Of a DNA stretch of 64,000 nucleotides, positions 1,637 through 25,144 are shown in pieces (positions within the stretch are counted from its first letter, which is position 1; each line of letters starts with the position of its first letter). The notes beneath the pieces were generated by a model. That model had not been told where the DNA came from and ran no database searches. It worked only from the letters and a program-made list of their open reading frames with translations. The stretch is from an uncultured Rhodospirillales bacterium (GTDB lineage: Bacteria; Pseudomonadota; Alphaproteobacteria; Azospirillales; Azospirillaceae). Position numbers and translations under genes: made by a program. The DNA is taken from assembly GCA_903927615.1 (NCBI GenBank), contig CAIYNU010000077.1:1-64000 (forward strand). The letters run 5' to 3'.

Positions 1637-1670
1637 CACCGCCCCCTTCACCACGCCATCGCCCTGCCCT

Positions 1671-7436: not shown

Positions 7437-7869
7437 ACCGGTCAAGCCAAAGCCGTCGGTCAGATAAGATGTGACCGCCACGGGCGCGTTCCCTCCCGCC
7501 ATGCATGATCCGGTCCCTCATGGGAACGGCCTTTTCGCTGTTCCGCTGGACTGGCTGACGCGGTAACGGGGGCTGGGCGAGGCCTCCCGTTTTTCTCGAG
7601 TCGCCGCCGGCCGAACATCCTCACGTATGGTGGCAAAGCTATCGCGTGGATCGAGAAACGTTAGAACACAACCCAAAATTTCAGAGATTCCCCGAGCTGC
7701 CCTGCCCGCTTCACCTTCCTATCGATGGTGAGGTGCCTTATAATAGCGCGGGGTCACTGGTGTCGGGTCTTGAGTCCACGGGCACATTCCGGTTTGCCCA
7801 GGGGTTCGGAACCCAGGATCGGCATGGCGACCGCACGGCTTTCAACCGGCTGCCGACGAGGGTGAAGTC
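7437..7869. other. intergenic region with a perfect -10 hexamer
   Basis: No gene is visible in this gap between two co-directional sensor genes. A TATAAT hexamer sits at 7739-7744, about 125 bases upstream of the kinase start, but the matching -35 region (TTCCTA) is poor. It may be a promoter for the kinase gene, possibly activator-dependent. Confidence 0.35.
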
Positions 7870-10821
7870 ATGGCGGAGGGGCAAGTCGAACGGAATGGGG
7901 AACGACTCCGGCTGCTGGCGTGCTGCGTCCTGGTATTACTGGGAGTAAATGGCTTTTTCGCGTTCAGTTTGTGGGTCAGTTGGCAGGACCGGTTGGATAC
8001 GGCCCGCCAGGAAACCCGGACTATGGCACAGAGTCTCGCCGACCACGCCGAGCGCACCATCGGCAGCGCCGACCAGATGCTTTCGGGCGTGGTCGAAACC
8101 ATCCAGGAGCGAATGGCCAGCGGTCGGCAGGTGGCAAGCGATCCCCGGTTGCCGATGCTGTTGTTACGCCGGGCCGGCATGGTGCCGTTCGTGCGCTCAC
8201 TCACCCTGTTGGACGGGAACGGGCTGGTCATCGGCGACGCTGGGGGCCGCCAGGCCAACCTCACCGACCGCTCGAATTTGCTGGAATTCGCGTTCCATCG
8301 GAATCAGGACCGGAGAATCCTGTTCATCGACGCTCCCAGAATCGACGGCGAGGGCGGAGCCTGGCTCTTCAGCCTCAGCCGGCGCATCGTCGATCGCCAG
8401 GGGCAATTTGCCGGGGTGGCGGTGGCGATGGCCGACCCCGAGACGTTCCGCCGCTACGACAGCACCCTTGGAGTCGACGGCGACGGTTTCGCCGAACTGT
8501 GCGATCGCAAAGGCGTGGTCTATAGCCGGGAACCCGGATTTGCCGCCGCGATCGGCCGACGTGAGGCCGATTTGCCACAATTGGCGACCCTCCTGGCCGA
8601 CGCGCCCGCCGGCACCGCCCAGCGCACCGACGCCGACGGCATTCTTCGGATCGTCAGCTATCGCAGCGTCGCCGGTACGCCCCTGGTCGCCATCGCGGCA
8701 CTGTCCGTCAACCATGCGCTGGCGCCGTGGCGCCGCACGCTTTATGGCCAGTTGCTGGCGGCACTGCTGGCCAATGCGGCCATCCTCGCTTTCGCCATCG
8801 CTCTGATGCGGCAGATCCGGCGCCTGAACACCGCCGCCCGAGATCTTCGCGCCAGCGAGGCCAGAGCCGTCGCCGCCCGCCGCCAACTGGTCGACGCCAT
8901 CGAAAGCATGAGCGAAGGCTTCGTGCTGTTCGATCGGAACGGACACATCGTGCTGTTCAACGATCGCTACCGCAGGATGCTCCGGCGGATGAACACCGTC
9001 CTGGTCCCGGGCCTACCGTACCGGGCACTGCTTGAGGAGGCGGCGTCGAACGGTTTCGTCAAGGTCACCCAGGCGAATGCCCAAGACTGGATCCAAAGCC
9101 GACTGGAACAACACCAGCGCCCGTCCAATGAGCCGGTGGAGCAGGAGTTGGCCACCGGCGAATGGGTCCTGACCCGGGCGTTTCCCACCAACGACGGCGG
9201 CCGGGTCCATATCCGAACCGACATCACGCACCTCAAGCGCCAGCAAGAGGAGGCCGCGCGGCAGGAGCTGCTGCTGCGGACCACCGTCGAAAACATCGTT
9301 CAGGGCCTGTGCGTGTTCGATCCCAACCGTCAACTGGTTTTGTGGAACCGCAACTGGCTGGCGTTGCTGGACCTGCCGCCGGAGTTCGGCCGGGTCGGCA
9401 TGCCGCTCCAAGAGATTCTGAAATGGCGGGCCGCCCGGGGGGATTACGGTCCAGGCAGCGTGACCGAATCAGCCGCCCCTTTATCCACCCTGTCCGACCT
9501 GGACGACCAGGCCGGCGAGCGGGTGCTGCCCAACGGCACCGCGGTGGAAGTCCTGGGGGTCTTGATGCCCGACGGCGGCCGGCTCACCACCTACACCGAC
9601 ATTACGGTGCGCCGCAGCGCCAAATTGGCGCTGCGGCAAAAGTCCGATGTGCTCGAGGTGACCCTTCAGAGCGTCGACCAGGGCATCGCCATGTTCGACC
9701 ACACCTTCCGCCTGATCGCGGCCAACCATCGCTACTATCACCTCCTCGACATCCCCGAGACCGCTTTTCCGTTGGGAACCCCCTTCGAAGTCCTCCTGCG
9801 TCACTTTGCGACGCGGGGCGAATTCGGCCCCGGCTGCGTCGAAGAACGGGTGGCCGAACGGCTCCAACGCGCCCAAAAGCTCCAGCCCTACCTTTTTGAA
9901 CGCACCCGCCTGGACGGTACCGTGATCGAGGCCCGGCGGACCCCCACCCTCCAAGGGGGTTTCGTCACCACCTACACCGACATCACCGAACGCAAGGCAC
10001 GCGAGAACGAACTGACAGCGGCCAAGGCGGCGGCGGAACGGACCAGCGAGGTCCGGTCGCTGTTTCTCGCCAAGATGAGCCACGAACTGCGCACCCCATT
10101 TAACGCCATCATCGGCTTTGCCGAAATCATCGCCGACAAGGCGTTCGGCCACGACCGCCAGGCGATTGACGTCTACGCCAGTTATGCCGCGGAGATTCGT
10201 CACAGCGGCCAGCACATGTTGGATTTGGTCAACAACATTCTCGACCTGTCAAAGATCGAAGCAGGCCGGATGACGGTCATGATCGATCGCTTTGACCTCC
10301 GGCAAACACTTCAGTCCAGTCTGAGCATGATGCGGGAACTCAGCCGCACCCAGGGTGTCACCATCTCCCTGGCGATCCCCCAACCGCTGCCCGAAACCCG
10401 GGCCGACGAACGGGCAGTCAAACAAATCATCACCAACCTGTTGTCGAACGCCCTGAAATTCACCCCCGAAAACGGCTGCATCAGCCTGATGGCCAGCCCC
10501 ACCCCGTGCGGCGGCTTCGAGATCGCGGTCAGCGACACCGGAGTCGGCATTCCGTCCGATCAGATTGACCGCGTCTTACTACCTTTCGAACAAATCGACA
10601 ACCGATATTCCCGCACAACCGGAGGCACCGGCCTTGGCCTGTCTCTGGTCAAAGGGTTGGTGGAGCTACACGGCGGCAGCCTCCGCATCGAAAGCACACT
10701 CGGCTGTGGCACCACCGTCACCGCCATCTTTCCGGCACTCCCGCCCGACCCCGTGGCTCCCGAGTCGAGAACCCGGACGGCCAACGGCCAGACCGACTTG
10801 ACCCGGCGGCCATCACTTTAG
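7870..10821 (+). CDS. membrane sensor histidine kinase with three PAS domains
   Basis: The protein has 983 residues. TM1 is at about 15-38, a periplasmic Cache-like sensor region spans about 40-290, and TM2 is at about 294-316. Three related PAS segments (PAS_7-like; each with a core such as 'G.CVFD....LVLWNR') occupy roughly 340-445, 465-575 and 595-705. The dimerisation/phosphoacceptor site is KMSHELRTPFNAIIGF with the histidine near 736. The ATPase domain shows NLLSNALKFTPE, DTGVGIP and GGTGLGLSLVKGLVELHGG. There is no receiver domain and no adjacent response-regulator gene, so this is an orphan kinase. GGTG just upstream of the ATG supports the start. The partner and signal are unknown. 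Confidence 0.92.
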   Translation: MAEGQVERNGERLRLLACCVLVLLGVNGFFAFSLWVSWQDRLDTARQETRTMAQSLADHAERTIGSADQMLSGVVETIQERMASGRQVASDPRLPMLLLRRAGMVPFVRSLTLLDGNGLVIGDAGGRQANLTDRSNLLEFAFHRNQDRRILFIDAPRIDGEGGAWLFSLSRRIVDRQGQFAGVAVAMADPETFRRYDSTLGVDGDGFAELCDRKGVVYSREPGFAAAIGRREADLPQLATLLADAPAGTAQRTDADGILRIVSYRSVAGTPLVAIAALSVNHALAPWRRTLYGQLLAALLANAAILAFAIALMRQIRRLNTAARDLRASEARAVAARRQLVDAIESMSEGFVLFDRNGHIVLFNDRYRRMLRRMNTVLVPGLPYRALLEEAASNGFVKVTQANAQDWIQSRLEQHQRPSNEPVEQELATGEWVLTRAFPTNDGGRVHIRTDITHLKRQQEEAARQELLLRTTVENIVQGLCVFDPNRQLVLWNRNWLALLDLPPEFGRVGMPLQEILKWRAARGDYGPGSVTESAAPLSTLSDLDDQAGERVLPNGTAVEVLGVLMPDGGRLTTYTDITVRRSAKLALRQKSDVLEVTLQSVDQGIAMFDHTFRLIAANHRYYHLLDIPETAFPLGTPFEVLLRHFATRGEFGPGCVEERVAERLQRAQKLQPYLFERTRLDGTVIEARRTPTLQGGFVTTYTDITERKARENELTAAKAAAERTSEVRSLFLAKMSHELRTPFNAIIGFAEIIADKAFGHDRQAIDVYASYAAEIRHSGQHMLDLVNNILDLSKIEAGRMTVMIDRFDLRQTLQSSLSMMRELSRTQGVTISLAIPQPLPETRADERAVKQIITNLLSNALKFTPENGCISLMASPTPCGGFEIAVSDTGVGIPSDQIDRVLLPFEQIDNRYSRTTGGTGLGLSLVKGLVELHGGSLRIESTLGCGTTVTAIFPALPPDPVAPESRTRTANGQTDLTRRPSL

Positions 10822-10999: not shown

Positions 11000-11899
11000 A
11001 TGCTGCCGAGATCCGCCCCCGAACCGACGCGACGCCCCGCCCGGGGACCGAACCCGGTTTCGTCCGAGGCTGACGCTCCGGCACTGCCCGACCTGGGCCA
11101 CGGACGCCACCGCCCCTTTGTTCTGCCCGCCCTGCCCTACGCCGAAGGTGCGCTGGCGCCCACGATTTCGGCGCGAACCATGCATTATCACTATCACCGC
11201 CATCATGCCGGCTATGTGGCGACCCTCAACCGACTTTTGGCCGACTCACTGCCGACCGACCCCACCTTGGCCAGCCAGTCGCTGATCTCGATCATCCGCA
11301 GCAGTGCCGACAACGCCGCCCGCACCGGGCTGTTCAACAATGCCGCACAAGTTTGGAACCACAGTTTCTATTGGCGCTGCCTGTTGCCCGGTGGCGGCGG
11401 CCGACCCGGTGGCGCCATCGCCAGCGCCATTGACCGAACCTTCGGTCATTACGCGACCTTCCGCGAACACATGATCGGCGCCGCGGTGGGCCAGTTCGGC
11501 AGCGGTTGGGCGTGGTTGTGCGTCGAAGGCGACCGGCTGACCATCCGTCGCACCGCCAATGCCAGAACGCCGGTTCAAGTGCCGGGATTGACGCCGCTGC
11601 TCACCATTGATGTCTGGGAACACGCCTATTACCTGGATAGCCAGAACCGGCGGGCGGACCATGTCACCCAAGTGGTCGACCGCTTGCTCAACTGGCCATT
11701 CGTCAACGCCATACTGGAAGCCCATCAGCGCGCCCTCAATCCGGTCCCCGCCCAGCGGCTGGCGCCGACCGGCAACCTGCCGACCACGACGGCCATCCAC
11801 ACGCCACGATTGCCGGCGCCGGTGCCGTCCCCAGCGCCGTCCTGGCAGGTCGCCGATACCCGCGCCGCCTCCTTTGCCCGTCTGGCCCGTCGCCGTTGA
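11000..11899 (+). CDS. sodB: superoxide dismutase, Fe/Mn family, with extended termini
   Basis: The enzyme converts superoxide to hydrogen peroxide and oxygen. All four metal ligands are visible in the usual contexts: the first His in the MHYHYHRHHAGYV segment, His in VWNHSFYW, and Asp and His in TIDVWEHAYYLD. The GGGGRPGGAI and GQFGSGWAWLC segments are also typical of the iron type. Compared with the usual 195-200 residues, this protein has about 40 extra residues at the N-terminus and a proline/alanine-rich tail of about 55 residues at the C-terminus. I placed the start at the ATG at 11000, which has GGAG seven bases upstream; an earlier in-frame ATG at 10928 has its Shine-Dalgarno directly abutting and is less likely. 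The long termini have no recognised function. A candidate small RNA and terminator follow. Confidence 0.9.
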   Translation: MLPRSAPEPTRRPARGPNPVSSEADAPALPDLGHGRHRPFVLPALPYAEGALAPTISARTMHYHYHRHHAGYVATLNRLLADSLPTDPTLASQSLISIIRSSADNAARTGLFNNAAQVWNHSFYWRCLLPGGGGRPGGAIASAIDRTFGHYATFREHMIGAAVGQFGSGWAWLCVEGDRLTIRRTANARTPVQVPGLTPLLTIDVWEHAYYLDSQNRRADHVTQVVDRLLNWPFVNAILEAHQRALNPVPAQRLAPTGNLPTTTAIHTPRLPAPVPSPAPSWQVADTRAASFARLARRR

Positions 11900-11932
11900 C
11901 CCAGCCCTGCACGCCAAGCTCAAGCGTTCTGT

Positions 11933-11938
11933 CATAAT
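11933..11938 (+). promoter_or_regulatory. candidate extended -10 promoter for a small RNA
   Basis: CATAAT is preceded by TG with one base between (TGTCATAAT), the extended -10 pattern. No good -35 is present at the usual distance. It lies about 30 bases past the superoxide dismutase stop codon and just upstream of a strong stem-loop. Confidence 0.35.
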
Positions 11939-11940
11939 TT

Positions 11941-12042
11941 GCTTGGAAGCGGCCATCGTGGAGCCTATGGTCCCGTTTCCAAGCACTCCCATCCTGTCAT
12001 CTTAACGACTCCCAGCCGCCATCGGCCGGGAGTCGTCTTTTT
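11941..12042 (+). ncRNA. candidate small RNA ending in a Rho-independent terminator
   Basis: After the candidate -10 there is a stem GCTTGGAA / TTCCAAGC (about 11941-11978) with an inner GGCCAT/ATGGTC-type helix. A single-stranded ACTCCCATCCTGTC stretch follows, then the strong terminator hairpin ending in a T-run. This gives a compact structured transcript of about 100 bases with no long reading frame. It could equally be the 3' untranslated region of the sodB transcript. I do not recognise an Rfam family. Confidence 0.4.
12005..12042 (+). terminator. Rho-independent terminator
   Basis: The hairpin ACGACTCCC...GGGAGTCGT with an inner GCCG/CGGC helix is followed by CTTTTT. The T-run is on the plus strand only, so it terminates sodB and/or the candidate small RNA. 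The convergent uspA-type gene ends 40 bases further on. Confidence 0.85.
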
Positions 12043-12085
12043 GATCGGTGAGCCCGGATGGGCGAAAACGCCGCCCCCCCAATTC

Positions 12086-12925
12086 CTAATGGCTCAACAA
12101 CACCGGCACCGTCATGTGTTCGAGGATGAACCCGGTGAGGCTGCCCAACACCAGGCTCCGCAACCGATTGCGGCCATAGGCACCCATCACGATCAGATCG
12201 CACCCCAAATCCGTCGTATAATTCAGCAGGGTGTCGCCGATTTCGTGGGGCTCGCAGATAAAATGGGCGGCTTCGGCGATGATGGCATGATGAGCCAAAT
12301 GGCGGGCAATCCCAAGCCCCGGTTCATCTCCAACCTCGTCCTTTCCTGGGGCGGTGTTGATGGCCAGCAGCGTCACCAGCCGCGCGCGTTCCAGCACCGG
12401 CAGGGCGTCGGCCACCGCCCGGGCTGCCTCCCGACTGCCGTTCCAGCCGACCAGCACCCGCCGGCCAACCGTCTCAAAGCGTCCGACATAAGGCACCACC
12501 AGCACCGGCCGACCACAGGCGAACACCAGAGCCTCGGGTTCCAGTTGCGGCAGACCCGGTGCGGCGGCCGGGTCCTGTTGGCTCACCACCACCAGATCCG
12601 CATAACGTCCATGGACTGCCGCGACCTCTGCGGCCACACCGGTCACGACCCGCCATTCCGACCGCTCCAGCCGGCCGGCCCGACGGACACTTTCGGTGAA
12701 ACGAATACCCGCTTGCGCAGCCCGGGCGTTTTCTTCCGCTTCCCAGGTTGTGCGCATCTCCTCCGTCAGAAAACTCTCGATATAACTCGGCAGACTGACT
12801 GGCAACGATATATATAGACCGGTAAGGTGGGCGTCGTGCTCTGCGGACAGCGCCAGGGCAACATCGATACGCGCCCCAGCCGCTGGCTGCTCGTCAACAA
12901 TCACCAGGATATCCTTGAGCGCCAT
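12086..12925 (-). CDS. universal stress protein, tandem UspA domains
   Basis: The protein has 279 residues and two UspA folds in tandem (about 1-145 and 150-279). The first begins MALKDILVIVDE and the second GRRVLVGWNGSREAARAV. The second carries the ATP-binding pattern G-2x-G-9x-G-S (GAYGRNRLRSLVLGS); the first lacks it. Proteins of this family bind ATP and help survival under stress, but the precise role is unknown. I chose the ATG at 12925 because GAGGGG lies seven bases upstream and the UspA fold starts immediately after it. The gene converges with sodB. Confidence 0.9.
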   Translation of the reverse strand: MALKDILVIVDEQPAAGARIDVALALSAEHDAHLTGLYISLPVSLPSYIESFLTEEMRTTWEAEENARAAQAGIRFTESVRRAGRLERSEWRVVTGVAAEVAAVHGRYADLVVVSQQDPAAAPGLPQLEPEALVFACGRPVLVVPYVGRFETVGRRVLVGWNGSREAARAVADALPVLERARLVTLLAINTAPGKDEVGDEPGLGIARHLAHHAIIAEAAHFICEPHEIGDTLLNYTTDLGCDLIVMGAYGRNRLRSLVLGSLTGFILEHMTVPVLLSH

Positions 12926-13180
12926 GACAGTTCCCCTCGCTTCAGACCCAGGGTCTGGACCCGTTGCCACAGACCCCCGCCAACCCTCATATGGGGAGAG
13001 TTCAAGGGATGATAAAACCGATATCGACGGCGGCGAATTGTCCCGGGGTGCCGGAACCCGAACTGAAACGGCTCCAGGCACTCGGAGCACGCCACGGTCA
13101 AACTCACAAAGTTATCTGTTGACGCCAATATTAAACTGTTCTTAAGGCGATTCCGCATTTCGCCCCAGGGTTGACCCACA

Positions 13181-15313
13181 ATGACCCTTGATGTTGCACT
13201 GAATAGCATCAACCCTCCCCTGCCCGGTTCGGACATCGGCACCTGGATGCCGTCGGGCGGATTCCTCCGCCTGATCGAGACACTGCCGGCCCAACTCTGC
13301 GTCATTGGCACCGATGGCCGTTTTCGATACGTCAACAGCACATTCGCGGCATCCACCGGCTGGCCCCAGGCGCGCATTGCCGGCCACACCGTCGCCGAGG
13401 TCCTCGGTGTCGCCGCCGCCCGGGACTTTGAGGCTCACGGCCGTCGGGCATTGACGGGCGAGACGGCCTCTTTTGATGGCTGGGTCACCGACCGCACCGG
13501 CCATCGCCGATTCCTGCGTCGCATCGCTGCGCCTCATCTGGCCGCCGAGGGCGGCAAGATCGACGCCTATTCGATGTTGATCATCGACTGCACCCAAGAT
13601 CGCACCGCCGAGGCTGCGTTGCACCTCAGCGAAGCCGTCAAGACAGCCGCCATCAACAATGCCCGGGATGCGATCATCGCCATCGACGACCAGGGAATCG
13701 TGATTGACTATAATCCTGCCGCGGCCCATCTGTTCGGCTACCCTCGCGATCAGGCCATCGGCCGCCCGATTGCCGACCTGATCATTCCCCCCGAATTGCG
13801 CCATAACCATGCGCTCGGGCTCTCCCGCGCCGTGGCTCGGGAGCGCGGGCACACCCTGCACCGACGGTTGGAGACCCAGGGGTTACGCGCCGACGGCAGT
13901 CGGGTCCCGGTCGAGGTCACCCTCGCCGATGTCATGGTGGGCGAGCGACGGCTATTCATTGCCAACCTTCGCGACATTTCCGAATCGCAGTTCAGCACCG
14001 ACCAGCAGACGGCCATGGCTTATCACGACCCGGTCACCGGGTTGGGCAATCGGGCCTTGCTGATGCGCGTGGTCGGCGAAGCCTTGACCCGGCGGGATCC
14101 GGTTCTGCTGGTCAATATCCACATCGATCGTTTTTCCAGCATCCGCAGCAGCTTTGGCCATGCGTTTGCCGACGATCTGTTGATCGGAATGGCCGGACGT
14201 TTGGCGGGCGACGTGCTGCCCGGCGATCATCTGGTTCGGATCGGTGACCATGTGCTGGCGCTGCTTCTTCATGGGTATCGCGACGACCCGATGGTGCTCC
14301 GGCGCCTTGATGCCATCGCCGACATCTTGCGCTCGGTGGTGACGCCGTCGGGAGCGTCGGTGTTCCTGTCCGCCAGCACGGGGATCGTCGCGGCCACCCC
14401 TCAGCACGAGACCCCGGAAGACCTGCTGCGCGATGCCGAGATCGCCACCAGTCGGGCCCGCGAAACCGGAGGCTCCCGAGTCGTCTGGTTCGACCCGTCG
14501 ATGCACGCCCGTGTCATCGATCAAGTGCGAACCGAGCACGACTTGCGCCATTCCCTCGACCTTGGGGTCGGCCTGTGGGTCGCCTACCAACCCATCGTCG
14601 AACTGGTGACCGAACGCCTGGCCGGTTTCGAGGCTTTGGTCCGCTGGAACCATCCGGAACGGGGACAAATTCCGCCGGTCCACTTCGTGCCCATCGCCGA
14701 AGAGACCGGGTTGGTGGTCACACTCGGCCGCTGGGTGCTGGGCGTCGCCTGCCGCCAACTGGCGCACTGGCAGGCCCTGCGCCCGCCAGGCATGTCTGAC
14801 TTGTTTATGAGCATCAACCTGTCGCCGCGCCAACTGGACGAACCCGGCTTTGTCGACTCCGTCCGCGCCGTCATCGCCGAGACCGGCATCGACCCCAAAT
14901 GTCTGAAACTGGAACTCACCGAAAGTGCGGTGATGCGCCGCCCCGAGGATTCCATCGTGATCCTGCGCGAACTTAAAAGTCTGGGCGTCAGCCTGTCCAT
15001 TGACGACTTCGGCACCGGCTATTCATCGCTATCATATTTGCACAAGTTTCCCCTCGATAGCATCAAGGTTGACCGTTCGTTCATCAGCGCGCTCCATCTC
15101 TCGGAAGAGAACCGCTCGATCGTGCGGATTATTGTGGATCTTGCGCGCTTGTTGGGCTTCGATGTGATCGCCGAAGGCATCGAAAGCGAATCCGACGCCA
15201 ACCTGCTGCGCGCACTGGCCTGCGACTATGGTCAGGGCTACCATTATTCCCGGCCGCAACCGCCCGATCAGATGGAACGGGTCTTGCGCGGGCGGGCGCC
15301 CTGGCAACGCTGA
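13181..15313 (+). CDS. PAS-PAS-GGDEF-EAL protein with degenerate GGDEF, probable c-di-GMP phosphodiesterase
   Basis: This is a 710-residue soluble protein with no transmembrane segment. Two PAS domains (about 27-140 and 150-270) precede a GGDEF-fold domain (about 280-440) and an EAL domain (about 450-700). The GGDEF motif position reads IGDHV (near 353), so the cyclase site is lost. EAL is intact: FEALVRWNHPE, LKLELTESAVM, SIDDFGTGYSSLSYL, IKVDRSFI and IAEGIESE. It should hydrolyse cyclic-di-GMP under PAS control. The gene stands alone, divergent from the universal stress gene. Confidence 0.92.
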   Translation: MTLDVALNSINPPLPGSDIGTWMPSGGFLRLIETLPAQLCVIGTDGRFRYVNSTFAASTGWPQARIAGHTVAEVLGVAAARDFEAHGRRALTGETASFDGWVTDRTGHRRFLRRIAAPHLAAEGGKIDAYSMLIIDCTQDRTAEAALHLSEAVKTAAINNARDAIIAIDDQGIVIDYNPAAAHLFGYPRDQAIGRPIADLIIPPELRHNHALGLSRAVARERGHTLHRRLETQGLRADGSRVPVEVTLADVMVGERRLFIANLRDISESQFSTDQQTAMAYHDPVTGLGNRALLMRVVGEALTRRDPVLLVNIHIDRFSSIRSSFGHAFADDLLIGMAGRLAGDVLPGDHLVRIGDHVLALLLHGYRDDPMVLRRLDAIADILRSVVTPSGASVFLSASTGIVAATPQHETPEDLLRDAEIATSRARETGGSRVVWFDPSMHARVIDQVRTEHDLRHSLDLGVGLWVAYQPIVELVTERLAGFEALVRWNHPERGQIPPVHFVPIAEETGLVVTLGRWVLGVACRQLAHWQALRPPGMSDLFMSINLSPRQLDEPGFVDSVRAVIAETGIDPKCLKLELTESAVMRRPEDSIVILRELKSLGVSLSIDDFGTGYSSLSYLHKFPLDSIKVDRSFISALHLSEENRSIVRIIVDLARLLGFDVIAEGIESESDANLLRALACDYGQGYHYSRPQPPDQMERVLRGRAPWQR

Positions 15314-16420: not shown

Positions 16421-16795
16421 ATGGCAGCGCCGAAATGTGTCCTCGTGGTTGATGACAGCTTACTCGCGCGGATGATGCTAAAAAAGTTCGTTTCAAAATT
16501 ATTGCCAGACTGGGTCCTCATTGAAGCAAAAGACGGCCAGGACGCTCTCGCCAGAATCGCTGGGAAAAATCTTGATATTGCACTCGTCGATTACAACATG
16601 CCCGGAATATCCGGTATTGATCTGGCAAAGAAGCTCAGGCAACAGTTTTCAAATGCTGCAATTGCCCTAATCACTGCAAATATCCAAGATTATATCATTA
16701 ACGAAGCTAAAGTTCTGGGTATTTCATTTATATCGAAGCCGATCGAAGAAGAGAAGATTGCTGCATTCATTTGTGCTGTGGAGAATATCCCATGA
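16421..16795 (+). CDS. CheY-like single-domain response regulator
   Basis: This is a stand-alone receiver domain of 124 residues. The acidic pocket is in VVDDSLLAR, the phosphoacceptor Asp in DIALVDYNMPG, a conserved Thr in ALITAN and the Lys in FISKPI. The ATG at 16421 has GGAG nine bases upstream; the ATG at 16412 abuts the same GGAG and is unlikely. It is the first gene of a chemosensory run and overlaps the following cheC by four bases (ATGA), so translation is coupled. Its codon use is visibly more A/T-rich than that of flanking genes. Its target could be a motor, the neighbouring c-di-GMP enzyme or CheC, but this is not known. Confidence 0.93.
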   Translation: MAAPKCVLVVDDSLLARMMLKKFVSKLLPDWVLIEAKDGQDALARIAGKNLDIALVDYNMPGISGIDLAKKLRQQFSNAAIALITANIQDYIINEAKVLGISFISKPIEEEKIAAFICAVENIP

Positions 16796-17400
16796 ACCTT
16801 TCAGAATTTGAACGGGATGCCATTTGTGAACTGGTCAATATCGGGATCGGACGGGCGGCCCGGTCACTGGGGAAGATGGTTGATGATCGCGTCCTGCTCA
16901 CCATACCTGCTATTGAACTGGTTGAACATGCCAACGTTGAAGCCATGCTCTCCACCCAGGCCGACGGTATTTTAACCGCTATTCGGGAGCGGTTCTCGGG
17001 AGCCTTTCAGGGGGATGCGTTTCTGGTATTCCCTGAAAACCATAGCCTGGAGTTAGTCCGGTCCCTGCTCGACGAAGAAACACCCATTGAGACCCTGACT
17101 GACCTCGAACAGGAATCGCTACTGGAAGTTGGGAATATCGTTCTGAATGCCTGCCTTGGCACCTTCACCAACATTTTATCCTGCCGGCTCGATATCGATT
17201 TGCCAGTTCTCTGCCGCGGCTCGATCGACCAGATTTTAGGAGGACGGGTATCGTCGGAAAATACCATTTATATGGTAATGAGAATTGATTTTACGACTCA
17301 AAGAAGAATGATCAAGGGATACCTCGTATTTCTATTTGACTCCGAGTTCACAACCACCTTCCTCGCGCAGATTAATTCTTACGTCGCCAAGAGCCGATGA
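16792..17400 (+). CDS. cheC: CheC family CheY-P phosphatase
   Basis: This 202-residue protein matches CheC, which dephosphorylates phospho-CheY. Both conserved active-site patches are present: RDAICELVNIGIGRAA near the N-terminus and EQESLLEVGNIVLNACLG in the middle (E and N in each). It begins at the ATG that overlaps the cheY-like stop, with GGAG eight bases upstream, and its own stop overlaps the start of the next gene in the same ATGA way. That makes a tight three-gene unit: cheY-like, cheC, GGDEF-EAL. CheC paired with a lone CheY next to a c-di-GMP enzyme suggests that receiver phosphorylation tunes second-messenger output (inference). Confidence 0.88.
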   Translation: MNLSEFERDAICELVNIGIGRAARSLGKMVDDRVLLTIPAIELVEHANVEAMLSTQADGILTAIRERFSGAFQGDAFLVFPENHSLELVRSLLDEETPIETLTDLEQESLLEVGNIVLNACLGTFTNILSCRLDIDLPVLCRGSIDQILGGRVSSENTIYMVMRIDFTTQRRMIKGYLVFLFDSEFTTTFLAQINSYVAKSR

Positions 17401-19592
17401 CCGAAGATGAAACATATTCGGCCTCTGAAATCGACAGCCTATTACATCAGGGCGTCGACAAAGCCGATATTGGATACATCATCATCGATAAGGCAGGCCG
17501 GGTCCTTGTTTGGAACAAGTGGATGGAACAGGCCTCCGGCAAACGCAAGGATCAGGTATTAAATTTTCCGATAGCAGAGATATTCCCCGAAATCCGCGAT
17601 AACCGCCTGGAAGAAGCAATCGCCAATGCCCTTGAGCGTGGCATGGCGGGTCTCCTTTCCGCCAAATTGCATCGCGCCCCGCCTTTATCTTTGCAACGGG
17701 TCGATGGCAGTGCCGCTCCCTTGACCAACCCTGTCATTATCCTACGCCCCCTGGTCGGGGTTGAACCCGGCCACCACGGCTGCCTTATTCAAATCATTGA
17801 CGAAACAACCTCGGCGACTCGAGAGAAAACCCTGCGGGCCCAAGCCATCACCCTGCGGGCACAGGAGGAGCAACTAAGGACACTCTTTGAAGCGATCAAC
17901 GATACCGTTTTGCTCATTGACGAGAATGGTCGGATCGTCGCCCTGAATGACACAGCATGCATCCGATTGGGGGGAAAGAAGGCGACAATGCTTGGTCGTC
18001 CCTTGCTTGAGTTATTGCCGAATTCAAACGCCCTAACCTATCGACGCCATTTGGACGCTCTCACCGCCTCCGGAACACCCCAGCGGTTTGAAGACACGTT
18101 GGGCGATGACACTTATCTCATTTCGATGTATCCTGTTCCAAACGGCAAAGGAGCCATCCAGCGGATTGCCGTGTTGGCCAGTGATATCACAGAGCGGAAA
18201 GTATTCGAAAAGCGCATTTTTCATTTAGCGCATCACGATACCTTGACTGGACTGCCCAATCGGGCCTATTTGTTGGATCGTGTGGAACATGCGATCGCCG
18301 TCGCGGGACGAATGAACCGCCGTCTGGGCCTGGCATTCCTGGATCTCGACCATTTCAAGGCGGTCAATGATACCCTGGGGCACGATTCCGGAGATGCCCT
18401 GCTCAAGACCGTCGCCGGCAAGCTCACCTCGGCGGTTCGGGCCAGCGACACCGTTGCCCGAATGGGAGGCGACGAGTTTGTGATCCTGCTGGAACCTGCG
18501 GGTCATAACGACGACATCGCCCGCATGATGGGCCGGATTCTTAAAGCTCTTGATTTGCAATGGGGGGCCGACAACGAGGCGATTCGCGTCACGACATCGG
18601 TTGGTATCGCGATTTTCCCGGATAACGGCAATGACGCGCGCCTGTTGATGAAGGCCGCGGACACCGCCATGTACGCCGCCAAATCAGAAGGCCGCAATCG
18701 GTTTCAGTTCTTCTCAGAAGAGATGACGACCCAAACCTTGCTCCGACTCCACCTGGAGCGCGACATCCGAGACGCTATTCATAAAGGAGAGTTTGAGCTG
18801 TATTATCAGCCAAAGATCTGTTTCGAATCCAATACCACTTGTGGTGCTGAAGCCTTGATCCGGTGGCAGCATCCGGAGCGCGGACAGGTCGCACCCAGTG
18901 AGTTCATTCCATTGGCCGAAGAAACCGGAATCATTGTCGAGATCGGAGCATGGGTCATCGAAGCCGTCTGTAAACAGATTGCCGAATGGATAAAGGCTGG
19001 CCGGACGCCGGTATCGGTCGCTATTAACATATCGCCGAAACAGCTTTTTTCCGGGAATTTTGTAACACTTTTTACCGATTGTTTTGAAAAATATCAGGTG
19101 CCGTTAAAATTCGTCCAAATTGAAATCACGGAAAGTACCGTTATGGCGGATTCAACCAAAGCGGCACTTATCCTATCACGCCTGCGCGAGCTTGGCGTTT
19201 CAATTGCCATTGACGATTTCGGAACCGGTTATTCCAGCTTATCTCATTTATCGCGATTGCCGATCGATGTCATAAAAATCGACCGGTCATTTGTTGCTGG
19301 GCTGGCCGACCGAAGCGAAAATCTTGAAATTATCAATGCCGTGGTCTCGCTGGGGCGATCCCTTAAGATGATTGTCATCGCCGAAGGGATTGAGACCGAC
19401 AATGATGTCGGCGTCCTGACGGACGCTTGCTGCCATCTTGGTCAAGGCTACCTGTTCGCCAAGCCGATGCCCGCCAGTGACCTGGAACATTGGTTAGATA
19501 TCCGAGGACATCTTGGTGATTGCTGGGGATGTACCAGGCATTCGAGTTCCAACCGGGACAGTCAGAATCATATGCTAAAATTGTGTCAATGA
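17397..19592 (+). CDS. PAS-PAS-GGDEF-EAL protein, intact motifs in both domains
   Basis: This is a 731-residue soluble protein. PAS domains lie at about 12-130 and 155-265, GGDEF at about 280-435 and EAL at about 450-715. The GGDEF motif is intact (MGGDEFVILL, near 356) and is preceded by an RASD inhibitory site at the correct five-residue spacing. EAL is also intact: GAEALIRWQHPE, IEITESTVM, AIDDFGTGYSS, IKIDRSFV and IAEGIET. It could make or degrade cyclic-di-GMP; the balance cannot be read from sequence. It is translationally coupled to cheC through an ATGA overlap, tying c-di-GMP turnover to a chemotaxis-type phosphorelay. Confidence 0.93.
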   Translation: MTEDETYSASEIDSLLHQGVDKADIGYIIIDKAGRVLVWNKWMEQASGKRKDQVLNFPIAEIFPEIRDNRLEEAIANALERGMAGLLSAKLHRAPPLSLQRVDGSAAPLTNPVIILRPLVGVEPGHHGCLIQIIDETTSATREKTLRAQAITLRAQEEQLRTLFEAINDTVLLIDENGRIVALNDTACIRLGGKKATMLGRPLLELLPNSNALTYRRHLDALTASGTPQRFEDTLGDDTYLISMYPVPNGKGAIQRIAVLASDITERKVFEKRIFHLAHHDTLTGLPNRAYLLDRVEHAIAVAGRMNRRLGLAFLDLDHFKAVNDTLGHDSGDALLKTVAGKLTSAVRASDTVARMGGDEFVILLEPAGHNDDIARMMGRILKALDLQWGADNEAIRVTTSVGIAIFPDNGNDARLLMKAADTAMYAAKSEGRNRFQFFSEEMTTQTLLRLHLERDIRDAIHKGEFELYYQPKICFESNTTCGAEALIRWQHPERGQVAPSEFIPLAEETGIIVEIGAWVIEAVCKQIAEWIKAGRTPVSVAINISPKQLFSGNFVTLFTDCFEKYQVPLKFVQIEITESTVMADSTKAALILSRLRELGVSIAIDDFGTGYSSLSHLSRLPIDVIKIDRSFVAGLADRSENLEIINAVVSLGRSLKMIVIAEGIETDNDVGVLTDACCHLGQGYLFAKPMPASDLEHWLDIRGHLGDCWGCTRHSSSNRDSQNHMLKLCQ

Positions 19593-19736
19593 CACAAAAC
19601 AATTGATGGCAACGATTGTCCTGGACCAAGCCCGGCATCCCGACCTTGACTTCTTCTGCGATTTTCCCTTAGCTCATTCACGCCCTGGCGAGGATGCGTG
19701 GGACAGTTATGTACTAACGAAAGCTTCTTCGGCAAG

Positions 19737-21110
19737 ATGACTGACTTACTCTATTTTAAGTGCGTCGCGACCTATGGCGCTTTTCCGGCTGAGGCGGTCG
19801 TCAGGATTTTACCGAAAACAACGGCTTGTCGGCTGCCCTTCTCACGAAATCTCCTCCAAGGTTTGGTATCGATTGACAATAGTCTTGCGGCATTAGTGAT
19901 TTGGCCGCCGAACGCTGACCACGAGGTGGGGTGCAACGGCTATTTTTTGCTGATTAAAACACCTAAGGGAAATATTATATTTCCGGTTGATGCGGTATCG
20001 ACCACCGAACTTTCCCGGCCGGCCGGGACGACCCTGTACGGCCTGGACGATATCGAAGCATTGGTCGCTGACTTCGCGGAGGCTAAGGGGGGGCACCAAG
20101 CCATGACCGGCCCACCGGTCCCGGAACCGCCCGACCCCCGTATCACTATCCTCATCGCCGAAGCCACCGGCGCCCTGATTGCCGTCCCCGCGACGCCGGT
20201 CATCCGTATTGACCGACACCAGGGCAGTACGACCATGCGCGTCGGTGATGCCTGTGAACGCCTGGTGACGATTGACGGCACACTGATGGCCGGCTTTTCT
20301 CTCGACCACTGGCTTGATCCCAAAAGGCAAACAGCGCATGCCGATTCGAGCGCCGAACCTTGGGCCCTCATCCTTGATGATGGGGGCCGTCACTTTGCCG
20401 TGACGGTGAAACGACTGCGCGGCCTGGTGGAGGCCGAGCGTCACACGATCCAGACCATTGCCCACCGCCTCGGCACCTCCTACTGGTATCTGGACCCGGC
20501 CCGAGGGCCCATCGAGATCATTGACCCGACTGCATTCGCGCAACCATCCCAGTCCGACCAGGTCCTGGCAGGTCGCCTGCCACCGCCGTCTCCAAGTCCC
20601 ACCGAAAGCCACGAGGCGGCAACCGAACGCCGGGCCGGGCTTCAAGTCAAGCGTGGCCTTGGGGTACAAGTCGGACCGTATTTCTGCGTCTTTCCCGCCG
20701 CATCAACCCTCTCGGTCATCGGCGACTTCCGTCGAAACCAGATAAGCACTCGCCAAGCGGGCAGTTACCCGGTGCTTGATCTGGCAGCTCTGCTCGACAT
20801 CCGGCCCCAAACGACACCGGGACGCGCCATTCTGGTCAAACGCCGCCATCGAAGAGCCATCATTATTCTAGTTGATGAGGTTATCACGGTGTCATCTGAA
20901 AATGTCCGGCATCCACTGCCCGCCTTACCCACCATTTTCCATGATCTGCTTAATGGAATTGGCTACGATGGAACTAGGATTTACCTTCATGTAAAGGAAG
21001 AGGTGTTGAGCAGACGGCCAATCAAGGCGCTTGCCGGCTTGTCAACACGATCTTTGATTGGCTACGCTCCCCGCGCCAGTCTGCCGGATTGGGCTATCGC
21101 CAAGCTCTGA
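19737..21110 (+). CDS. second triple CheW-like domain protein, divergent
   Basis: This protein of about 457 residues appears to contain three CheW-like folds (about 1-120, 135-255 and 315-455). They are more divergent than those of the protein at 230-1636. CheW-like cues are the repeated 'DLLYFKCVATYGAFPAEAVVRI', 'LIAVPATPVIRID' and 'PYFCVFPAASTLSVIG' opening strands, each followed by a short domain ending in an FPVD- or AVTV-type strand. It contains no kinase or receiver domain. The start is uncertain: ATG 19737 begins right at the first domain, while GTG 19698 has GAGG four bases upstream. The MCP gene follows within 40 bases, so it probably works as an adaptor for that receptor. Confidence 0.7.
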   Translation: MTDLLYFKCVATYGAFPAEAVVRILPKTTACRLPFSRNLLQGLVSIDNSLAALVIWPPNADHEVGCNGYFLLIKTPKGNIIFPVDAVSTTELSRPAGTTLYGLDDIEALVADFAEAKGGHQAMTGPPVPEPPDPRITILIAEATGALIAVPATPVIRIDRHQGSTTMRVGDACERLVTIDGTLMAGFSLDHWLDPKRQTAHADSSAEPWALILDDGGRHFAVTVKRLRGLVEAERHTIQTIAHRLGTSYWYLDPARGPIEIIDPTAFAQPSQSDQVLAGRLPPPSPSPTESHEAATERRAGLQVKRGLGVQVGPYFCVFPAASTLSVIGDFRRNQISTRQAGSYPVLDLAALLDIRPQTTPGRAILVKRRHRRAIIILVDEVITVSSENVRHPLPALPTIFHDLLNGIGYDGTRIYLHVKEEVLSRRPIKALAGLSTRSLIGYAPRASLPDWAIAKL

Positions 21111-21145
21111 ACAAGCCCCCGGTCGTCGTTTCTCTCCGGTCATGG

Positions 21146-23104
21146 ATGAATTTCATGCTTAAGAATGTCAAAATCGGCCATCGCCTTTTGCTCCTGGTTG
21201 CCCTGTTGTCGCTATTTGTTTGCGCAACGGGCGTAGTGGGGCTGCAAGGGATGAAAACAACCGATGTTTCGCTTGATACGGTCTACAATGACCGTGTTAT
21301 TCCACTGCGCGATCTCAAAATAATTGCGGACATGTACGCAGTTAATATTGTCGACACCACTCATAAGGCCCGTAACGGCGCTCTAACCTTAACCCAGGCG
21401 ATCAGTAACATCGACAATGCCAATGAGGTGATCCACCAAAAATGGAAGGACTATCTCGCGACCTACCTTGTCGATCAGGAACATCAATTGGTCAATCAGA
21501 TCACACCGCTCATGGTAGTGGCGGACCGTGAAGTTGCACGCGTGCGCGCGATACTGTTGGCCGGCGATGCCAATAAATTAGCGCAATTTACCATAACATC
21601 ACTTTATCCCGCGATTGACCCGGTTTCTGAAAAATTTAGTGATCTGATTAACGTCCAAATCACCGTTTCCAAATCCGAATATGAAGCCTCTCAAGTCCGT
21701 TACGATCACTATTTCGACTATATGATTGCGTTGCTGGTCGCGGCCCTTGTTCTGGGCATCGGCTTCAGCATTACCATTATCCGTTCCATCACCATCCCCA
21801 TCAATCATATCAGCGCGATTATCGGGCGCTTGGCCAAAGGTGACCTCGCGGTTGACCTCGCCGATGATGGGCGTCAGGACGAAATCGGCCAGATGACGCG
21901 AGCCGCGGCTTTGATCGTATCGACACTGAAGGACGTCGCCGGCGATCTGGTGGACATGATCGATGCCGCCCGTGCCGGTGCCCTCTCAACACGCACCGAT
22001 CCGTCCCGGCAGTCGGGCGAATTCGCCGTGTTGTTGCACGGAGTGAATGATCTGTTGGAAGTCATCACGGCACCGCTGTTCGAGGTTGCCACGGTCATGG
22101 CGAAATTGGCGTCGGGAGATATCCGAGGGCGGATTTCCGGCGCGTACGAAGGTGACCTGCGGGCACTGAAGGGAAACGTCAATCGCAGCCTGGATGGGTT
22201 GGTATCACTGTTGGACGAGATTTCGGCCTTTGCCAGTGCGATGGCTTCCGGTGACATCACCCGCTCGATTGACGGGTCATACCAGGGTGACTTTGCCGCC
22301 ATTAAGCTTAACTTGAATAAAGCTGCGGCACAACTGCGTACTGTTCTGGGAGCGGTTGCCACTTCGACACAGCATGTGGCCAATTCTGCGACCGAAACCA
22401 CCGCCGCCGCTATTGACGTCTCGCGCCAGGCGGCGACCCAGATGGTCACATTGACCGAGGTTTCCTCAGCCATCGAACAAACCGCCGCGGCGGTGAGCGA
22501 CATCGCGCGAAGTGCCGAGCGCGCCAACACCCTCGCCGGTGAAGCAGCCACCGCGGCCGAGAGTGGGCAGACCAAGCTCTTGAATTTATCAAGCGCCGTT
22601 GAAAGCATCCAAAAGGGCAATACCCGGATCGGCCAGATCAGCAATTTGATTTCTACCATTGCTGATAAAACTTACGTGCTTGCCCTTAACGCCGGGTTGG
22701 AGGCGGCCCGGGCCGGTGACCACGGCCGCGGTTTTGGTTTGATCGCGCATCAGATCACTAAACTGGCAGAAGACGTGGCTCAAGCCACCCGGGATATCCG
22801 GGCCCTCATTGACGACGCAACCAGCAGTGTTCAGATTGGTGTGGTGACCACCGAGGCTGCCGGTGTGGCCATGGCCCGCATCGTCGGCGCCGCCCGGGAG
22901 AGCGGACTCACGGTTCAGGCGATCGCCGCAGCGATCGAGGAGCAAAACACCATGACTCAGCTCTTGAAGGAGCGGGTCACCCACCTGCGCATGGTCGGCC
23001 AGAACACCGCCGGCGCAGCGGAAGAAATTTCTGCGACCATGACCTCGCTGACGGCCATGGCCCAGCATCTGAAAGCCGAAGCCGCCTGTATTAAATACTT
23101 GTGA
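21146..23104 (+). CDS. chemoreceptor with poly-HAMP and a non-canonical signalling tip
   Basis: This is a 652-residue receptor. TM1 is at about 10-32, a four-helix-type periplasmic domain spans 35-190, and TM2 is at about 193-215. A HAMP domain (about 215-270) is followed by two further HAMP-like repeats, recognisable from the paired SGDIRGRISGAYEGDLRALK and SGDITRSIDGSYQGDFAAIK segments. The signalling hairpin near 505-540 reads IADKTYVLALNAGLEAARAG then GRGFGLIAHQITKLAED, where the family consensus is QTN for [16 protein letters not shown], and [12 protein letters not shown]. The Asn and Gln that help bind CheA/CheW are therefore replaced. TTG at 21089 is a possible but unlikely start; ATG 21146 puts the membrane anchor in the normal place. 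It sits between a divergent triple-CheW gene and a channel gene. Confidence 0.9.
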   Translation: MNFMLKNVKIGHRLLLLVALLSLFVCATGVVGLQGMKTTDVSLDTVYNDRVIPLRDLKIIADMYAVNIVDTTHKARNGALTLTQAISNIDNANEVIHQKWKDYLATYLVDQEHQLVNQITPLMVVADREVARVRAILLAGDANKLAQFTITSLYPAIDPVSEKFSDLINVQITVSKSEYEASQVRYDHYFDYMIALLVAALVLGIGFSITIIRSITIPINHISAIIGRLAKGDLAVDLADDGRQDEIGQMTRAAALIVSTLKDVAGDLVDMIDAARAGALSTRTDPSRQSGEFAVLLHGVNDLLEVITAPLFEVATVMAKLASGDIRGRISGAYEGDLRALKGNVNRSLDGLVSLLDEISAFASAMASGDITRSIDGSYQGDFAAIKLNLNKAAAQLRTVLGAVATSTQHVANSATETTAAAIDVSRQAATQMVTLTEVSSAIEQTAAAVSDIARSAERANTLAGEAATAAESGQTKLLNLSSAVESIQKGNTRIGQISNLISTIADKTYVLALNAGLEAARAGDHGRGFGLIAHQITKLAEDVAQATRDIRALIDDATSSVQIGVVTTEAAGVAMARIVGAARESGLTVQAIAAAIEEQNTMTQLLKERVTHLRMVGQNTAGAAEEISATMTSLTAMAQHLKAEAACIKYL

Positions 23105-23114
23105 GGTCACGGTG

Positions 23115-24569
23115 ATGACCGGATCATTCAAACAGATATTTGGGAAAATTATTGCGCCGCTGTTGGTCTGCTGCATTATTTTCACTCTATTCTATGCCGG
23201 CGGCGATAATTACCAGAATTTTGGCTTGGCCGCGGTGGACAGCACCCGCAAAGCGGTAAAATATGTGCTGGGCGTCATTGCCTTTCTATCCTTGGCAGTT
23301 CTATCTCAGCGTGTTATTCGTTACGTGGTGTTTGACGGCATCGTCGCCCGGGCAACGGGTGCGCCGGTTCCCCGCTTGCTGAGCCAGATTTCTGGTCTGG
23401 TCATTTATTTGATTGCAACCTCGGCCTGCGCCGGAATCGTCTTCGATCAAGACCTCACGGTCCTGTGGGCCGCTTCGGGCGTCGCGGGGTTGGTGCTCGG
23501 CATGGCGCTGAAAGAGTTGCTTCAGGATGTATTCGCCGGAATCGCCCTCAATATCGATCGCGCGGTGCGCATTGGTGAGTACATCCGCCTCCATAAGGCC
23601 GGGGACGACACCGTGGCCGGACAATTGCTGGAAATCAGTTGGCGCACCAGTCGGGTTAAAGACTTCTATGGTGATATCGTCATTCTGCCCAACAGCAAAT
23701 TCAGTTCCTGCACCATAACCAATTTCAGCCAGCCGGAACCGACCAGTTATCGGTTTGTCACCATCACTTTGGATGCCCGGGTGCCTCAGGCGCGGGCGAC
23801 CCGTGTCTTGCAGGCGGCGGTACTGGAAGCCCTGCTGGGACTGGTTGGACCCGAAGCGAATCAGCCTTGGGTTGAGGTGAAATCGATCAAATTAGAGGGG
23901 ATTGAGTATGCCATTTACTATAAGGCCGAATGGCGGCATCTGGTTAATGCCCGCCCCCTGATATTCCAATCAATTCTAACCCATTTGAGCCAGGCCGGAC
24001 TTGAGCCGGCGCATGCCCGTCAGGATACTTTTAGTCCCAGCCCCGGCCATAACCCACATCACCCCGATCTCGGACGTCTGATTTCGCTGATTGGCGCTAC
24101 TGAATTGTTCAAGGGACTGACCGAAAGCGATCTCTTTTTACTGGGCAAAGGCGCGCATTTACAGGTTCATCCTTCGGACCGGATTGTCGTCCAGTCCGGT
24201 GAGGCCGGCACCATTCTATACCTGATTATCGAGGGATTACTCTCCGTCGATCCCGGACGCCGCAAAAGCCAACGCTCTGACCCACGCCCCATGTTGCGCC
24301 CGGGCGATCTCTTCGATCCTTCGGTGGCCTTGTTGGGCGAGGCGCATAGCAACACGGTCCGCACGCGCACCTCGGTGCTTTTGTGTGAAATGAGCCGGGA
24401 ACTCTTCAGCGCGCTGTTCCGCGCCAATCCCGAGACGATTTACCAGATCGGGCGCAATCTCGCTGCGCAGAAGCGTCCGGGAGCGTCGGACCAGGATAAC
24501 GAAGTCGCCGACGATCTGTTACGCCAGATGCAGCACTATTTCGCGGATTCGACTGGGCAAAACCTATAA
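23115..24569 (+). CDS. MscS-family mechanosensitive channel with C-terminal cyclic-nucleotide-binding-type domain
   Basis: This 484-residue membrane protein has four transmembrane helices in about residues 8-150. The last carries the MscS pore-like GVAGLVLGMALKELLQDVFAGIAL segment, and the MscS beta/alpha cytoplasmic region follows (about 150-300). A cNMP-type beta-roll lies at about 320-440 (LFKGLTESDLFLLG... GTILYLIIEGLLSV). In the phosphate-binding cassette the expected FGE...R(T/A)A signature reads FDPSVALLGEAHSNTV, so the glutamate and arginine are missing and cAMP binding is doubtful. The ATG at 23115 has GAGG eight bases upstream. The gene follows the MCP by ten bases and probably closes the same transcription unit. 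The channel may be gated by a different ligand or only modulated by that domain. Confidence 0.9.
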   Translation: MTGSFKQIFGKIIAPLLVCCIIFTLFYAGGDNYQNFGLAAVDSTRKAVKYVLGVIAFLSLAVLSQRVIRYVVFDGIVARATGAPVPRLLSQISGLVIYLIATSACAGIVFDQDLTVLWAASGVAGLVLGMALKELLQDVFAGIALNIDRAVRIGEYIRLHKAGDDTVAGQLLEISWRTSRVKDFYGDIVILPNSKFSSCTITNFSQPEPTSYRFVTITLDARVPQARATRVLQAAVLEALLGLVGPEANQPWVEVKSIKLEGIEYAIYYKAEWRHLVNARPLIFQSILTHLSQAGLEPAHARQDTFSPSPGHNPHHPDLGRLISLIGATELFKGLTESDLFLLGKGAHLQVHPSDRIVVQSGEAGTILYLIIEGLLSVDPGRRKSQRSDPRPMLRPGDLFDPSVALLGEAHSNTVRTRTSVLLCEMSRELFSALFRANPETIYQIGRNLAAQKRPGASDQDNEVADDLLRQMQHYFADSTGQNL

Positions 24570-24574
24570 GGCAC

Positions 24575-25015
24575 TCACAACCCGATATCCTTAAATCTGT
24601 CACCCCCAGACCGCAGATATTCGGCAATCTGCAAGTCCATCACCAGGACATGCGTAATAATCCAGTGCCCCAAGAACTCTACAAAATCCGAACTTGCCTC
24701 CTCATTATTTGCAATTGAAACCGCAAGGTCGTCGACGTAATTATAAAATAATTTATGCTCGCTTTTGTGGTTAACATAGTCCGGATAACCCGCCGCCAGC
24801 ATCACATCTTCTTCCATCTTGAAGTGAGTGTCGGCATAGCTTTTCAGCACGATAATGGCCTCTTCGTTGACTTTGCTCTCTGATTCCAGTGACAGAGTCG
24901 ACACGATGTGGTTATAGACCCGAATCAGGCCTTCATGGTCGCGGTCGATCGCGGCCACCCCAATCCGATATTGATCCGTCCACGCAATCTGGCCGACAAC
25001 GGGGCGACAGGACAT
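24575..25015 (-). CDS. bacteriohemerythrin
   Basis: This is a 146-residue single-domain hemerythrin. The di-iron ligands are all present: His in IDRDHEGL, HxxxE in HFKMEE, HxxxH in HKSEH, and the final His/Asp pair HVLVMD after GHWIITH. Such proteins reversibly bind oxygen and supply or sense it in microaerobic bacteria. The ATG at 25015 has AAGGAG with good spacing. It is convergent with the channel gene and lies upstream of nothing obviously linked. The start gives the usual length of the family. Confidence 0.93.
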   Translation of the reverse strand: MSCRPVVGQIAWTDQYRIGVAAIDRDHEGLIRVYNHIVSTLSLESESKVNEEAIIVLKSYADTHFKMEEDVMLAAGYPDYVNHKSEHKLFYNYVDDLAVSIANNEEASSDFVEFLGHWIITHVLVMDLQIAEYLRSGGDRFKDIGL

Positions 25016-25144
25016 GACGATCTCCTTCGGCAGAGGCGTGTCCGGCGTTGGACACCGGCCTCTTGCCGACACATGGTGACCAGAGACTTTAGGCTCCGGT
25101 TCCCGGCAGCCCGGTTTTTTCCTGCGGACTGGCTTGCGAACGGA

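Follow-up and report, generated by a model that had tools for sequence, protein, structure and literature searches.

What is a chemoreceptor for when its gene stands between those of an adaptor and an ion channel, with no gene for the kinase CheA nearby? This question is raised by a stretch of DNA from the draft genome of an uncultured Rhodospirillales bacterium related to Azospirillum (the opening 64 kb of contig CAIYNU010000077.1, which is 91.7 kb long; hereafter the window), in which six co-directional, tightly packed genes on the plus strand (16421-24569) encode a CheY-like protein, a CheC/CheX-like protein, a PAS-GGDEF-EAL protein, a protein with three CheW-like domains (CheW3), a methyl-accepting chemotaxis protein (MCP) and an MscS-type channel that ends in a fold for binding cyclic nucleotide monophosphates (cNMP). 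The original prediction took this run for a dedicated pathway linking a receptor array to second-messenger turnover and membrane conductance. We find that the novel part of the run is its last three genes, the triple-CheW protein, the poly-HAMP MCP and the MscS-type channel. The predicted route from receptor to conductance gained support from the conservation of this unit, including in some hosts without detectable CheA, and the predicted link to cyclic di-GMP (c-di-GMP) was lost, since the genes concerned belong to a separate module. On balance, we lean toward the view that two modules lie side by side here and that CheW3, MCP and channel make up a self-contained, kinase-independent and methylation-adapted receptor-channel system.

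A conserved CheW3-MCP-MscS cassette

When an alignment of the channel was run, by way of two channel motifs, against one genome per species for 84,980 species, 27 loci were recovered, which come from Azospirillum and its relatives, a Rhizobiales metagenome-assembled genome (MAG), Comamonadaceae and Limnohabitans, a Burkholderiales MAG and a Desulfobacteraceae MAG. In every one of them an MCP gene lies immediately upstream of the channel gene on the same strand, at a distance below 100 nt in 25 loci. Moreover, the open reading frame (ORF) before the MCP gene matched a CheW3 profile in 24 loci, 16 of which were part of that profile and eight were not; some of these ORFs had been missed by a codon-trained gene caller and were found by the profile. 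Among the exceptions, the contig of L136 begins inside the MCP gene, and in L149 the contig breaks off within a CheW3 gene, leaving a fragment, while a full CheW3 gene lies downstream on the other strand. CheA was found in none of the 27 cassette stretches, which span 4.8-21.5 kb. Identity to the MCP and channel of the window is 59-75% in the closer copies (60-75% for the MCP taken by itself) and 37-41% in the more distant ones, and a second complete cassette, belonging to the more distant subgroup, is present in the window's own genome (contig C15; 4197-9118 of L116). A CheW-MCP-MscS cassette is also carried by the 724-kb plasmid pAB510b of Azospirillum sp. B510 (L133, 5581-10521), which is typed as mobilizable and offers a possible route of spread; a plasmid search with CheW3 as the query returned no match. 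In three Azospirillum loci (L150, L153 and L156), the cassette is followed by a gene for a hypothetical protein and, judged by eye, the start of a ClpV-like ATPase gene (for example L150, 11642-15566), possibly part of a type VI secretion region.

Evidence that the cassette can do without CheA comes from its hosts. We searched for CheA (PF02895) in the 22 host genomes that stand behind the 27 loci (L149, L150, L153, L156 and L158 bear the same isolate name as another searched locus); as a control, the same search gave a match in 7 of 14 reference genomes. Four of the 22 hosts had no match, namely G458 (L142), G461 (L145), G462 (L146) and G463 (L147, Limnohabitans sp. Jir72). G461, G462 and G463 each contain exactly one MCP match, which is the cassette's own, and FlhA, a flagellar export component, was found in none of these three genomes. 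Jir72 belongs to a genus in which an MCP match is missing from 69 of 90 genomes, and among 399 genomes drawn from its family the cassette channel occurs in Jir72 alone, two further matches being only 27-29% identical. G461, a Comamonadaceae MAG, carries on its contig C67 (L204, about 6437-10061) a CheW fragment together with a broken cheR and apparent pieces of cheB, fliA and cheD; because this stretch is broken while the operon is intact, the genome seems to have lost its ordinary chemosensory system and to have kept the receptor-channel operon.

Comparison of L146 with L147 revealed five genes without stops, in which the rate of nonsynonymous substitution (dN) is 0.097 for the MCP, 0.107 for the channel, 0.20 for CheR, 0.39 for CheB and 0.50 for CheW3. 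The corresponding synonymous rates (dS) range from 1.7 to saturation, with 1.81 for the MCP and 1.73 for the channel. Since dN is low compared with dS, itself near saturation, purifying selection acts on the MCP and the channel at least. The independence of the cassette from CheA in these three hosts is well supported, and because the unit is intact where neither CheA nor FlhA was detected, the receptor may act through the channel rather than through phosphate signalling.

Channel, receptor and adaptor

To place the channel, we compared 54 MscS-cNMP proteins, 28 from cassettes and 26 other homologs; seven of the original 33 non-cassette homologs had been dropped, one as a duplicate locus and six because their cNMP domain could not be aligned. 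All 28 cassette channels fall on one side of a single branch (support 100/99). The phosphate of a cyclic nucleotide is bound by an arginine and a preceding glutamate in the cNMP pocket. The arginine column holds histidine in 23 cassette channels, tyrosine in five and arginine in none, and the glutamate is present in two of the 28; the other homologs have the arginine in 24 of 26 cases and the glutamate in 22 of 26. In a PDB profile alignment, the same two columns face the FGEAAL and QRSAT residues of cGMP-dependent protein kinase. Because the phosphate-binding arginine has been lost, gating of the cassette channel by a cyclic nucleotide is unlikely. The predicted model of the channel has a low pTM of 0.38, and pocket geometry was not drawn from it.

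The receptor retains much of what is expected of an MCP. The signalling domain (PF00015) was found in all five cassette MCPs scanned, Pfam bears out the originally predicted poly-HAMP receptor, and the MCP of the window carries the methylation-type motifs AAEEIS and SSAIEQ. Across 28 receptors, the second of these motifs has E-E in 25 and E-Q in two, and the first has E-Q in 16 and E-E in one, most receptors of the more distant group having an altered form of it. The receptor tip differs, as asparagine is found there in none of the 28 cassette receptors, which have tyrosine, histidine, glutamine or aspartate instead, compared with 23 of 27 non-cassette tip matches (cassette copies left out). 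A tip lysine (DKT) was also considered as a signature of the cassette and was rejected, as KTN occurs in 11 of 15 tip matches from loci of the Limnohabitans genus, so that only the loss of the asparagine that follows it stands.

The adaptor is fast evolving, with 17-32% identity between its relatives and the window's copy. Of the three CheW domains originally predicted, the second is certain (VIA Z 14; Pfam CheW) and the first is supported by profile comparison (E 3e-6), and the third is weak, at E 0.0015 compared with 0.3-0.5 for three negative controls. The arginine of the NLRG motif is a residue through which CheW contacts receptors. It occurs in none of 17 aligned rows of domain 1 and none of 18 of domain 2, domain 3 not being alignable at this position; ordinary CheW proteins of the same genome have it in five of five cases. 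At the level of sequence, both the receptor tip and CheW3 deviate from the standard. Another triple-CheW gene, with three clear Pfam CheW domains, lies beside an MCP gene at the contig end of the window (230-3434, minus strand), and a related pair sits within a CheA-bearing cluster on contig C70 of the same genome (L064).

Five of the 27 loci (L142 and L144-L147) carry genes for CheB and CheR behind the channel gene. Full-length scans of the five CheB proteins detected the methylesterase domain and no Response_reg domain at E up to 1. Receivers carry an acidic pair near their N-terminus. The CheB proteins of L144-L147 begin, judged by eye, like a receiver, but have VLLAP or VLLAQ in place of that pair, and the CheB of L142 is a bare methylesterase domain. 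The operon of L142 also has an insert (11484-13028) encoding a protein with two Ion_trans domains and a filter-like motif, TSIGYGD. G460, the host of L144, has CheA, nine MCP matches and FlhA.

These features bear on an alternative in which the cassette is an ordinary input to the CheA arrays of its host, the channel and receptor sensing membrane tension or ions and CheW3 linking them to a canonical CheA. CheA was found in 18 of the 22 hosts, and the window's genome has five elsewhere and includes CheA-bearing che clusters; since CheA is present in such hosts, the receptor could feed it there. In addition, the receptor keeps its signalling domain and methylation-type motifs, and CheW domains are generally known to bind the P5 domain of CheA. 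We nevertheless consider this alternative unlikely, given the three genomes that keep an intact, selected operon with a single MCP, without detectable CheA and without any further intact CheW match, the lack of CheA in all cassette stretches, the receiver-less CheB encoded in the operons of five hosts (four CheA-less, one CheA-bearing) and a CheW3 without the NLRG arginine.

Beyond the CheA-bearing hosts, several further points weigh against a receptor-channel system that acts without the kinase. Of the three clean hosts without CheA, two are MAGs and the third, Jir72, is a draft genome with no stated completeness value, and the absence of CheA from G458, which has six MCPs and FlhA, may be due to an incomplete bin. 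The CheW model, which would also match the P5 domain of an ordinary CheA, gave no match in G462, matched the cassette and nothing else in G463 and picked up a 117-aa fragment in G461, but would miss a very divergent P5, because it missed the cassette CheW3 of G461 and G462. CheR also occurs outside the operon, with two matches in G463, two in G462 and seven in G461, the extra ones in long open frames or fragments, and operon-borne CheB and CheR are limited to the five loci named above. The E-Q or E-E pair of the first methylation-type motif is absent from 11 of 28 receptors, and as the NLRG arginine is gone from domains 1 and 2, CheW3 may depart from the known mode of receptor binding. One locus, L139, has no adjacent CheW3, and channels that lost their MCP and diverged may be missed because the scan used two channel motifs. 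Contact and gating within the cassette are inferences.

A further alternative, in which the lattice of receptor and CheW3 gathers or positions the channel as a mere scaffold and does not gate it, appears scarcely probable. According to one paper, CheW and CheV of Vibrio cholerae can form baseplates without CheA (PMC6759762), which makes CheA-free lattices physically possible and would also suit a scaffold. However, the periplasmic sensor and the HAMP units are kept in the receptors scanned, and five operons include CheR and CheB; because these parts are kept, they point to regulated signalling.

Two modules at one site

We next return to the six-gene run as a whole. Its first three genes are joined by two ATGA overlaps, and the gaps between CheW3 and MCP and between MCP and channel are 35 and 7 nt, so the gene coordinates (Table 1) agree with the compact, co-directional arrangement originally described. 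Between the third and fourth genes lie 144 nt, or 105 nt if CheW3 starts at the GTG at 19698, which makes two transcription units possible; a consensus scan of this gap found no plus-strand promoter-like or terminator-like site and is uninformative either way. The start of the channel is either the GTG at 23112 or the ATG at 23115. The predicted absence of CheA, CheR and CheB from the window also held, as PF02895 had no match on the contig and tblastn of the window with queries for CheA, CheB and CheR, two for each, gave none.

Table 1. Coordinates of the six-gene run and its downstream neighbor, with the basis of each assignment.
Feature	Position	Strand	Basis and remarks
CheY-like receiver	16421..16795	+	Pfam Response_reg; first gene of the CheY-CheC-output module
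CheC/CheX-like protein, CheY-P phosphatase family	16792..17400	+	Pfam CheX and CheC
PAS-GGDEF-EAL protein	17397..19592	+	Pfam; sequence carries GGDEF and EAL motifs; output gene of the CheY-CheC module
CheW3 (457 aa), with three tandem CheW-like domains	19737..21110	+	Pfam CheW on domain 2; fold and profile comparisons; cassette adaptor
MCP with 4HB periplasmic sensor, HAMP and two HAMP_2, MCP signalling domain, methylation-type motifs	21146..23104	+	Pfam
MscS-type channel with C-terminal cNMP-binding fold	23112..24569	+	Pfam; Foldseek matches with MscS and cNMP domains; phosphate-binding arginine replaced by histidine
Hemerythrin-like (HHE) protein	24575..25072	-	Pfam; borders the run together with mtnP

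The run is flanked by clpP upstream and by the HHE gene and mtnP downstream, and the latter two also adjoin each other in L046 and L052/L143. At the same site, the sister genome G004 has clpP, CheY, CheC, GGDEF/EAL, HHE and mtnP in this order, and the CheW3, MCP and MscS genes are absent. In G002 the CheY-CheC module is on a separate contig, and CheW3-MCP-MscS lies near photolyase, mtnP and HHE genes; G001 has both modules on different contigs, and in G003 CheY-CheC sits where a contig ends, and the window's CheW3 has no match. Loci L046 and L047 of sister genomes combine CheY-like, CheC and GGDEF-EAL genes without the cassette. CheC was found near the cassette in none of the 27 loci, and the window-type channel in none of 26 other CheC-bearing stretches (25 from other genomes and one distant CheC from the window's own), 11 of which also contain CheA. 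The six genes were considered as one conserved unit and rejected as such, since their order occurs in no other locus examined; what recurs of the gene order originally predicted is the three-gene unit.

A single pathway, in which the receptor array signals jointly to CheY, c-di-GMP turnover and the channel, would fit the adjacency, common direction and short spacers of the six genes and the low GC content of both halves. Yet the first half stands alone at the site in G004, the halves are on different contigs in G001 and G002, neither accompanies the other at the remaining cassette and CheC loci, and 144 nt separate them in the window, so that we regard this reading as very unlikely. Because the halves occur apart in sister genomes and other loci, we propose that two separately inherited modules were juxtaposed here, each most likely having been acquired on its own at one site. 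The GC content of the two halves, 0.513 and 0.566, is below that of every overlapping window of the same size outside the run within the 64 kb (minima 0.551 among 249 windows and 0.576 among 232), which is consistent with acquired DNA. A further PAS-GGDEF-EAL gene of host-like GC content lies just upstream of clpP (13181-15313) and is kept in G004.

The CheY-CheC-GGDEF/EAL module most likely works separately from the cassette. Its receiver gene overlaps a CheC/CheX-family gene by ATGA, as in a CheY-CheC phosphatase module; the CheC/CheX-like protein has matches in 60 of 119 genomes searched, its own included, and scores far below the cut-off of the NCBIfam CheC model. CheC would dephosphorylate the CheY-like protein, and the third gene product would make and break c-di-GMP. 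That third gene is GGDEF-EAL in G004 and G002 and a histidine kinase in all ten of the more distant modules scanned from the 26 CheC loci.

Proposed mechanism and comparison with known systems

In the receptor-channel system that we propose, the transmembrane MCP and CheW3 would join into a signalling assembly that can do without CheA, and the target of this assembly would be the MscS-type channel encoded next to them. The former cNMP domain of the channel, having presumably given up cyclic-nucleotide binding, would probably serve as the contact for the receptor assembly, and in some lineages the CheR and receiver-less CheB of the operon may reset the receptor by methylation. This scheme implies physical contact between CheW3, MCP and channel, control of channel opening by the receptor, and ion flux or turgor as the output. 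Taken to its full extent, it would be a chemosensory system free of kinase and phosphotransfer, in which ligand on MCP-CheW3 directly determines how far a dedicated MscS-derived channel opens (and, in one lineage, a K+-type channel as well) and CheR with an unregulated CheB gives a methylation memory; we judge this fuller version about as likely as not. If true, chemoreceptor arrays can drive ion flux, and bacteria would possess an adapting receptor system with a channel as its output, which could also be an output for chemosensory genes in bacteria that lack flagella. The cassette further offers a testable minimal system, with five genes and one receptor in a host without other detectable chemoreceptors, for receptor-effector coupling without phosphorylation.

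To our knowledge, the chemosensory classes described so far have the kinase CheA as the protein through which they signal. Judged by titles and the beginnings of abstracts, we recognised no description of a CheA-free chemoreceptor-channel operon in the open-licence PubMed Central literature. With canonical MCP-CheW-CheA-CheY systems that include CheR and CheB, the cassette has in common an MCP signalling domain, a CheW-like adaptor and methylation-type motifs and, in the five extended copies, CheR and the CheB methylesterase, both of which other hosts may supply from elsewhere. Unlike them, it has no CheA in the unit or its surroundings, no NLRG arginine in its adaptor, a channel as its conserved partner and an operon CheB without a detectable receiver, and in three of its host genomes neither CheA nor FlhA nor a second MCP is detectable. 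The multi-CheW scaffolds found in ordinary che clusters, among them the product of 230-1654 in the window, resemble CheW3 in their three tandem CheW-like domains beside an MCP; that protein has three clear Pfam CheW matches and a relative in the CheA-bearing cluster L064, whereas CheW3 is highly divergent and has no CheA near it. The first half of the run shares its CheY-CheC pair with the CheY-CheC-histidine kinase modules of Azospirillaceae but has PAS-GGDEF-EAL as its third gene instead and no CheA nearby.

Finally, the cassette channel is closest in architecture to the bacterial cyclic nucleotide-gated (bCNG) channels reportedly described by Caldwell and colleagues in 2010. Like these, it combines the pore and beta domain of MscS with a cNMP-binding fold behind them, as found by Pfam, PDB profile and fold searches; it differs from them in the replacement of the arginine by histidine or tyrosine in all 28 cassette channels, its separate group in the tree and its MCP neighbor in 27 of 27 loci. 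The parts of the cassette come from known families, and the unit combines them without the CheA of chemosensory systems and without the phosphate-binding arginine of cNMP-gated channels.

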